Positions 1 through 47,377 of a stretch of DNA of 64,000 bases are shown here, in pieces. The first letter of the stretch is position 1, and every line of letters starts with the position of its first letter. Both the position numbers and the translations under genes were made by a program. The stretch comes from Bacteroidaceae bacterium (lineage in GTDB: Bacteria; Bacteroidota; Bacteroidia; Bacteroidales; Bacteroidaceae): assembly GCA_017470525.1 (NCBI GenBank), contig JAFUYM010000025.1:1-64000 (forward strand), in the 5' to 3' direction. The notes under the pieces were generated by a model. That model was not told where the DNA came from. It saw only the letters and a program-made list of their open reading frames with translations, and searched no databases.

Positions 1-166
1 CCTCAAGTCGCATCGTGGGGTAAGGGGATGGTGGCTACATATTGATGTTGTGCTGTTGCTTTTTACTGAAAGCTGCTACTAACGACTCATAAATCTACCC
101 TTAATCGTGTATTGGATGATAGTTGCGGATTTTAGGATAATCTCATATAATCATCACGAAAGCGAC

Positions 167-943: not shown

Positions 944-1002
944 CCATGCCTCCATCAAAAGCATTTCACACTCAAGAAAACCATCCTTTCACAACCTCTT
1001 TT

Positions 1003-1067
1003 TCGCACTGCTCCAGTCCGACGTGTCGGACTGGAGCAGTGCGGTTCATCGGACTGGAGCAGTCCGA
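1003..1067. repeat. Three-unit 23-bp-period palindromic repeat array (copy A)
   Basis: Three 19-bp units start at 1003, 1026 and 1049, separated by 4-nt spacers (CGTG, TTCA). Unit 3 is TCGGACTGGAGCAGTCCGA, a 7-5-7 palindrome. Unit 2 is the same with a GCGG end, and unit 1 is unit 2 inverted in place apart from one terminal base. The same three units recur at 10769-10833 with different spacers. It lies between the barrel gene and the permease promoter. Function unknown. Confidence 0.9.
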
Positions 1068-10768: not shown

Positions 10769-10833
10769 TCGCACTGCTCCAGTCCGATGCATCGGACTGG
10801 AGCAGTGCGGCATGTCGGACTGGAGCAGTCCGA
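10769..10833. repeat. Three-unit 23-bp-period palindromic repeat array (copy B)
   Basis: Units start at 10769, 10792 and 10815. Each of the three 19-bp units is identical to its counterpart at 1003-1067, and only the 4-nt spacers differ (TGCA, CATG here). It lies in the 464-bp gap 10601-11064. That gap also has a weak stem (ATAAAC/GTTTAT near 10636-10655) and a promoter; I see no gene in it. Confidence 0.9.
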
Positions 10834-11024
10834 AAGAGAAGTTATCGCTTCGCTCAGAAATCAAAGACGTATGTGATGCTGTTAGCCGAACATCGTCTCT
10901 AACTTCTTTAACTTCAAAGAGAGTCAAACTCCCCAAACTTAAATTAATTGTTAATAATTCATTATTTTACAGCCCATCTGATACAAACTTTCGTGCTTTA
11001 GGCTTTCATTTATAGTTTTTTCGT

Positions 11025-47312: not shown

Positions 47313-47377
47313 CCGTACCCCTCGGGTATGACCAGGCGCACCCCTCGAGTACAACCAACCGTACCCCTCGGGTACGA
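47313..47377. repeat. Three-unit 23-bp-period array between regulator and lyase gene
   Basis: 19-bp units start at 47313, 47336 and 47359 with 4-nt spacers (CCAG, CCAA). The consensus is CCGTACCCCTCGGGTACGA, palindromic around CCTCG. It begins 11 bp after the regulator stop and ends 89 bp before the lyase ATG. Confidence 0.85.

Follow-up and report, generated by a model that had tools for sequence, protein, structure and literature searches.

Dispersed three-hairpin arrays in a Bacteroidaceae genome share a shape but not a sequence and resemble REPIN/BIME-like repeats

Introduction

What kind of element keeps its units identical at two places in a chromosome while the nucleotides between those units differ? 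The question is raised by two arrays in a 64,000-nucleotide stretch of Bacteroidaceae DNA (the window), which comes from a 3.24-Mb assembly that is 83% complete (GCA_017470525.1; hereafter the source genome). An initial annotation, made from the letters of the window, suggested that the units were under selection or being copied, as protein-binding sites might be, and that they were neither a CRISPR nor a recent duplication.

Several known classes of palindromic repeat serve for comparison. Canonical REPs carry a GT[AG]G tetranucleotide at the foot of the hairpin; in a REPIN, two units in inverted orientation replicate together as a pair; and a REPtron is a RAYT gene flanked by its own repeats.

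Results

Two window arrays share every unit base and differ in their spacers

Each array consists of three 19-bp units at a period of 23 bp, and the unit is a palindrome of 8-bp arms around a 3-nt centre, TCGGACTG-GAG-CAGTCCGA. Arrays 1 and 2 agree at all 57 unit bases, exactly as the initial annotation had reported, while the 4-nt spacers are CGTG and TTCA in array 1 versus TGCA and CATG in array 2; in both arrays the first unit runs opposite to the other two (Table 1). Allowing up to three mismatches, TCGGACTGGAGCAGTCCGA matches the window eight times (two units being matched on both strands), versus a mean of 0.01 in 100 shuffles. The distinction that the annotation drew between conserved units and free spacers holds, and we agree that no recent segmental duplication is involved and that a CRISPR array is ruled out, the spacers being 4 nt long and drawn from a small set rather than long and unique. 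The far flanks are unrelated; a degenerate 17-nt arm recurs outside the arrays of this family, distinct to the left of array 1 and weak at array 2.

A strict geometry scan found a third window array, built from another unit. Folded as single-stranded DNA, arrays 1 and 2 are strongly structured (z -11.0 and -10.2), and the fold of the third array is not stronger than that of shuffled sequence (z -0.9). Rfam has no match in the window at gathering scores.

The right flank of array 2 (~10837-10915) is a different dispersed repeat (AGAAGTTATCGCTTCGCTCAGAA ... TAACTTCTTTAACTTC), with relatives at two to three places each in G010, G012, G017 and G043 and at one place in G042 (G-numbers denote the genomes of relatives). 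Window positions 1-138 have an exact inverted copy close to the end of contig C72, next to a further array (L064); beyond this repeat the two contigs diverge, which marks a repeat or an assembly fork.

Table 1. Positions of arrays, units and hairpins in the window and in loci of related genomes.
Feature	Location	Strand
Outer arm of array 1, CTTTCACAACCTCTTTT (outward AAAAGAGGTTGTGAAAG)	986..1002	-
Array 1, unit 1 (inverted)	1003..1021	-
Array 1, unit 2	1026..1044	+
Array 1, unit 3	1049..1067	+
Array 2, unit 1 (inverted)	10769..10787	-
Array 2, unit 2	10792..10810	+
Array 2, unit 3	10815..10833	+
Third array, built from CCGTACCC-CTC-GGGTACGA (another unit type); intergenic, three 19-bp units at a period of 23, without clear arms	47313..47377	+
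Palindromes inside RAYT-like genes	L208:6138, L209:4144, L216:4800 and 4860, L217:4917 and 4977	
Hairpin arrays of G161 and G213	L261:1501-1567, L262:1501-1567	

The unit belongs to a family of at least 37 arrays

Searching the source assembly for the unit core with one mismatch returned 49 forward and 60 reverse matches. Laying out 100 of these 109 gave at least 37 arrays of this unit type (type 1), of which some at contig ends may be one locus counted twice, so the counter-reading that only two copies exist fails. The arrays are spread over many contigs with unrelated far flanks; 36 have three units and one (L041) has two. Unit positions 7-12 are invariant in 110 of 110 units, and variation consists mainly of G/C exchange at positions 4, 6 and 16 and of changes at the ends. 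Central trinucleotides occur in both orientations, pyrimidine and purine alternate in 59 of 73 spacers, and the outer units are inverted in 33 of the 36 three-unit arrays.

By crude ORF calls these many palindromic units are chiefly extragenic: among the 37 listed arrays, 12 lie in tandem, 8 in convergent and 7 in divergent contexts, 2 lie in ORFs and 8 at contig ends. T-runs adjoin several arrays, and some arrays, judged by eye, stand directly behind stop codons. Outside the type-1 arrays conservation reaches background at about 17 nt, with an outward arm consensus of approximately AAAAGAGGCTGTGGAAG; a typical copy has one well-preserved arm and another that starts TTTT. Because the two arms of a copy match at fewer positions (222) than in shuffles (mean 263), we rejected the idea that they form a paired closing stem. 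Three 19-bp hairpins, each an 8-bp stem closed by a 3-nt loop, are joined by 4-nt linkers and bordered by two degenerate 17-nt outer arms, which gives an element of ~99 bp.

Array copies located at contig ends, L033, L041, L057 and L069 (G011:C59), have one flank in common and the other different, as would be expected if arrays served as break points of recombination or assembly.

At least four unit types coexist in the source genome

We built a 65-bp covariance model of three hairpins from 14 arrays of the source genome and G011, two of which are overlapping stretches of a four-unit array. With 150 candidates scored, the model gives 148 matches in the source genome, both strands counted, at 82 places: the 37 type-1 arrays and 45 more. 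We read 41 of these 45 (40 fetched loci and the third window array; four were left out), and all 41 combine the same geometry with other unit sequences, 20 being type 3, 15 type 2, three type 4, two type 5 and one a mixed call. At least four unit types coexist in this genome, and the three units inside an array are homogeneous, all of one type in 40 of the 41; in L311 the third unit is shifted. Outer units are inverted in 27 of the 40 scorable arrays of these other types and in 14 of 24 congener arrays, orientation counts from which L041, having only two units, and one array whose loop could not be read are excluded. Neither GT[AG]G nor its complement occurs in the 73 type-1 spacers or in the 80 spacers of 40 other arrays of the genome, and for lack of this tag at the hairpin foot we do not file the arrays as canonical REPs.

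The arms suggest a second possible identity, a classical MITE, in which a non-autonomous copy of a DDE insertion sequence would have the outer arms (CTTCCACAGCCTC...) as terminal inverted repeats and the hairpins as passengers, as in BrickBuilt. Scored against a reference arm from type 1, with the better side taken, inverted-repeat arms are common to types 1, 3, 4 and 5 (means of 9.0-9.5 of 12 positions; background 3.6) and average 7.5 in the 24 congener arrays, and the length of ~99 bp also suits a MITE. However, the arms are degenerate with usually only one well kept, type 2 lacks them (mean 4.9), and no target duplication has been established, which makes a classical MITE very doubtful.

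The sequence looks nearly private to one species and the geometry is not

A strict pattern spanning the type-1 unit junction occurs in 2 of 45 genus genomes and 2 of 399 family genomes, in each case the source genome and G011, whose one array lies in a stretch 98.5% identical to the source DNA across 622 bp. No viral contig contains the strict pattern, and viral carriage is rejected for it on that count. Among named genomes the pattern finds five stretches, one of them in the MAG Bacteroidaceae bacterium RGIG3230 from goat reticulum; the other four are single matches in unrelated organisms that we have taken for chance. Judged by sequence, the type-1 family looks nearly private to one species.

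A repeat count in 228 kb of G011 revealed a different unit, CCGACGTG-CCC-CACGTCGG, arranged at the 23-bp period; three of its arrays have three units and a further one has four. The strict geometry scan finds no array in 140 kb of G037 and none in shuffled sequence. At E <= 0.01, with both strands counted and 116 candidates scored per genome, matches to the covariance model occur in 22 of the 45 genus genomes, of which 18 are array-rich (at least 36 matches) and four have 1-3 matches; 23 genomes have no match among the candidates scored. Within the low-match group, G006 and G036 have full arrays, G023 has three hairpins at a period of ~24 and G040 has two hairpins. Across the family, where the threshold was 1e-4 and 17 candidates per genome were scored, matches occur in 16 of 301 genomes; 14 belong to this genus and two, G161 and G213, to one other genus. 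Because the number of candidates scored per genome was capped in both searches, absences are not proven. G161 and G213 have 19-bp hairpins of the GTGTAGTG-CGG-CACTGCAC type, three or more in a row at the 23-bp period, and the geometry is therefore not confined to one genus.

Units differ from species to species: TCGGAGTC-CCC-GACTCCGA in G008 and G044, CCGACGTC-CCC-GACGTCGG in G007 and G012, TCGGTGTG with CCC or GGG in G016, and TCGCACCC-GTC-GGGTGCGA in G035. The sequence is replaced; what mostly stays is the 8-3-8 hairpin, repeated three times at a period of 23 bp.

These comparisons bear on the protein-binding sites that the initial annotation had proposed. A chromosome-organising or regulatory protein might place a dimer on each palindrome every 23 bp, its specificity changing between species, and the strict period and number, the palindromic units and the strong conservation within a species would all accord with such a protein. 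It could hardly read alike the four or more unit types of one genome, however, and it also has to contend with central trinucleotides that flip orientation, arrays within a coding gene (see below) and 23 of 45 genus genomes in which the 116 candidates scored gave no match. Sites of fixed sequence are unsupported, given sequence replacement across species at mostly kept geometry and arrays in frame within a gene, and a protein of shifting specificity seems to us very improbable.

Stems change on both sides

The covariation set comprises 28 arrays from 19 genomes; alignment A4 excludes G026, the second G011 locus (L196), G023 and G040, and the best G026 match left out of it (L186) is an array on later reading. 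In this set 89% of cells are paired. Both-side changes occur in 18 of 24 pairs, a number reached by 7 of 500 shuffles. Cells changed on both sides number 140, where shuffles average 57 and no slid control exceeds 42. The covariation score is 0.505; shuffles give 0.185, and the slid controls stay at or below 0.141. All of these counts lean towards structure because the model chose the arrays. Units 1 and 2 taken as a single long hairpin pair at 81%, as expected of units that are alike.

Compensated stem changes are also what one would see if the arrays acted as RNA hairpins selected for pairing, that is, as terminators, attenuators or stabilisers of mRNA 3' ends, and the strong folds of arrays 1 and 2, the T-runs and the positions behind stop codons agree with such regulatory sites. 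Against this, the tandem, convergent and divergent counts, crude as the ORF calls are, indicate that arrays do not shun promoter sides, and in 13 genomes an array sits in frame within glycerate kinase. Further, the third window array has a fold no stronger than shuffles, Rfam has no match in the window at gathering scores, and a strict scan downstream of the cobalamin adenosyltransferase gene, over 1 kb in each of nine congeners, found no array. Regulatory RNA is, in our view, quite unlikely.

One site in glycerate kinase holds five unit types

In the gene for glycerate kinase (PF02595), an array lies in frame within the coding sequence, with conserved flanks at nine loci beside a RAYT-like gene. 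Our survey matched 36 genomes, from which 26 loci were taken and 21 parsed, and its counts exclude G015, G040, G037, G021, G036 and G002. The site is occupied in 13 genomes, including the source genome (C41:32921-32985, of type 3 and not the type 1 of the window), and is without an array in seven parsed genomes (G003, G041, G028, G006, G004, G025 and G001). Five unit types occur there: eight genomes have a GTC-centred type, G007 and G012 share a CCC type with GACGTC arms, and the other three carry CCGACGTG-CCC (G011), TCGGTGTG-GGG (G016) and TCGCACCC-GAC (G035). The encoded peptide is variable and pairing is preserved, in 88% of cells versus at most 49% when slid (9 of the 13 arrays); both-side changes are not unusual at this site, 49 of 500 shuffles reaching the count.

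A shared left arm favours one ancestral array, since rewritten, over repeated filling of the site. At this site 13 species have five unit types and all three units change together. It is conceivable, if rather unlikely, that shape, count and frame are inherited while the letters are rewritten in concert. Such rewriting would point to an enzyme, for which the Y1 protein encoded nearby is a possible candidate, that replaces existing arrays with another current unit in addition to inserting new ones.

A RAYT-like gene accompanies most array-rich genomes

The RAYT-like gene near glycerate kinase encodes, in G007, a 347-aa protein with the motif PDHLHG. All 15 aligned RAYT-like proteins have PDH[LF]H, and each matches NF047646, the model for the REP-associated tyrosine transposase, with a score under the cut-off. 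PF01797 is too insensitive for these proteins; a 326-aa protein of the source genome matches it above cut-off. In a search of solved structures the RAYT profile gave weak matches only (best E 0.2), among them a very weak match to DprA (E 0.2). Between glycerate kinase and the RAYT-like gene, L208:4796-5725 encodes a helix-hairpin-helix protein (HHH_3).

A close RAYT-like gene (at least 74% identical to the G007 copy) is whole or nearly whole in 12 genomes; the G026 copy contains a stop, and G031 and G034 have fragments only. Counting genes and fragments, 14 of 18 array-rich genomes have it versus 0 of 27 other genus genomes (Fisher p 1.8e-8, uncorrected for kinship). In nine of 12 loci an array lies 0.6-1.5 kb upstream, on one side only and within glycerate kinase; there is no flanking pair, and the arrangement differs from a REPtron in this respect. 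The loci without an array there are G028 and G041, where glycerate kinase is empty, and G015, with a weak match 3 kb off.

The initial annotation had proposed testing for a co-occurring protein. The RAYT-like clade co-occurs with arrays in 14 of the 18 array-rich genomes and is missing from the source genome, which is array-rich without a close RAYT-like gene, as are G008, G044 (97% complete) and G035. In the source genome the glycerate kinase and helix-hairpin-helix genes are assembled, and the ~590 bp beyond them hold no RAYT frame. The only relative found by searching this genome is 41% identical and lies elsewhere; forms 84-86% identical to it occur in array-free G037 and array-rich G030, and more distant relatives are present in many array-free genomes. 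The 326-aa Y1 protein of the source genome is not supported as the specific partner: the 14 kb of its locus L068 contain no type-1 unit (up to 4 mismatches), and a type-2 array lies 6 kb from it (L068:12076).

The link between arrays and RAYT-like genes may reflect shared ancestry. In a GH43 gene tree of 20 genomes the array-rich genomes do not cluster (148 of 500 shuffles score as low), and kinship alone may therefore not explain the link, although a single gene that may not follow the species is weak ground for this.

Within the RAYT-like genes, where the coding sequence is variable, lies a 19-bp palindrome of 8-3-8 form, GCTGCRAC-NNN-GTYGCAGC, that shows compensated change, much like in-gene REPs (Table 1). 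It has the shape of the array unit and was rejected as its source, being rare elsewhere: one occurrence in 220 kb of source-genome loci, two in 228 kb of G011 (one of them the gene itself) and none in 140 kb of G037.

Discussion

The window arrays belong to a large family of dispersed repeats that share a shape and not a sequence. Their geometry is nearly fixed, their outer units are mostly inverted, their units are species-specific with compensated stems, and in one gene they lie in frame. In-frame arrays and sequence replacement at kept geometry fit a REPIN/BIME-like repeat better than fixed binding sites. We put a probability of roughly 60% on the reading that these are non-autonomous REPIN/BIME-like elements whose hairpins are handled by an HUH/Y1 transposase. 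We infer this enzyme and the mobility from the geometry, the inverted outer units, the in-frame intragenic copies and the gene association. That the arrays fall into the class of mobile REPIN/BIME-like repeats we hold with considerable confidence; that a RAYT carries out the step is more tentative, at slightly under even odds.

On this reading, the hairpins would be recognised as single-stranded DNA by an HUH/Y1 transposase (RAYT) acting in trans, which would copy or move whole arrays. Element and enzyme would drift together, giving each species its own unit sequences, and the copies in the source genome would have spread before its RAYT was lost, or via another Y1 enzyme. Against the REPIN/BIME-like reading stand the missing GT[AG]G tag, arms that do not pair copy by copy and the armless type 2. 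The comparison of arrays also revealed no instance of transposition and did not define a clean empty site with a target duplication.

Like REPINs and BIMEs with their RAYT (TnpA_REP), the arrays are short palindromes in dozens of copies with outer units often inverted, mostly extragenic and sometimes in frame in genes, in lineage-specific unit families and with a Y1 gene in most carriers. Unlike them, they lack a GT[AG]G or CGTC tag, usually have exactly three units on 4-nt linkers, share outer arms and replace the unit sequence between related species. In Pseudomonas fluorescens SBW25, REP triplets are rarer than expected (PMC3116915). Bacteroidetes have Y1 subclasses with atypical REP-like structures, including untagged hairpins beside subclass 2.6 and in-frame REPs in subclass 2.4 genes (PMC6006769); these share with our arrays the phylum, the Y1 protein family and untagged or in-frame hairpins. 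The sections of that paper compared here describe no triplet geometry, and our arrays may belong to the same type as its atypical structures, seen here more completely.

Other described repeats are more distant. The CGTC REP has a terminal CGTC tag and a 4-5 nt loop (PMC3733652), whereas our hairpins have 3-nt loops and no such tag. Rickettsia palindromic elements are likewise palindromic and inserted in frame in genes (PMC3733652), but in another host, and the likeness is one of published description rather than of sequences. The BrickBuilt MITE of Porphyromonas gingivalis is, as described, also an intergenic Bacteroidetes element with 23-nt repeats and small inverted ends (PMC4596501); its direct repeats, 1 to 22.8 in number, follow one another without spacers, and its ends resemble GAGACC (PMC4596501), whereas our arrays have mostly three hairpins, spacers and other arms. 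A literature search on REP-like repeats in Prevotella, Bacteroidetes and the rumen, mainly in open journals, found no title on a three-hairpin array among the matches listed.

The arrays provide a natural series, with one geometry, many unit sequences and in part a single site, in which REP-like sequences change while structure is kept, and this series lets one ask whether RAYT proteins drive unit change. A repeat of this kind is missed by sequence searches between related species, and in rumen metagenomes it can interfere with gene calling and with the assembly of short reads. Taken together with the conservation of shape, the changing letters suggest a mobile or DNA-processing system that keeps the form of its element while letting the sequence go.
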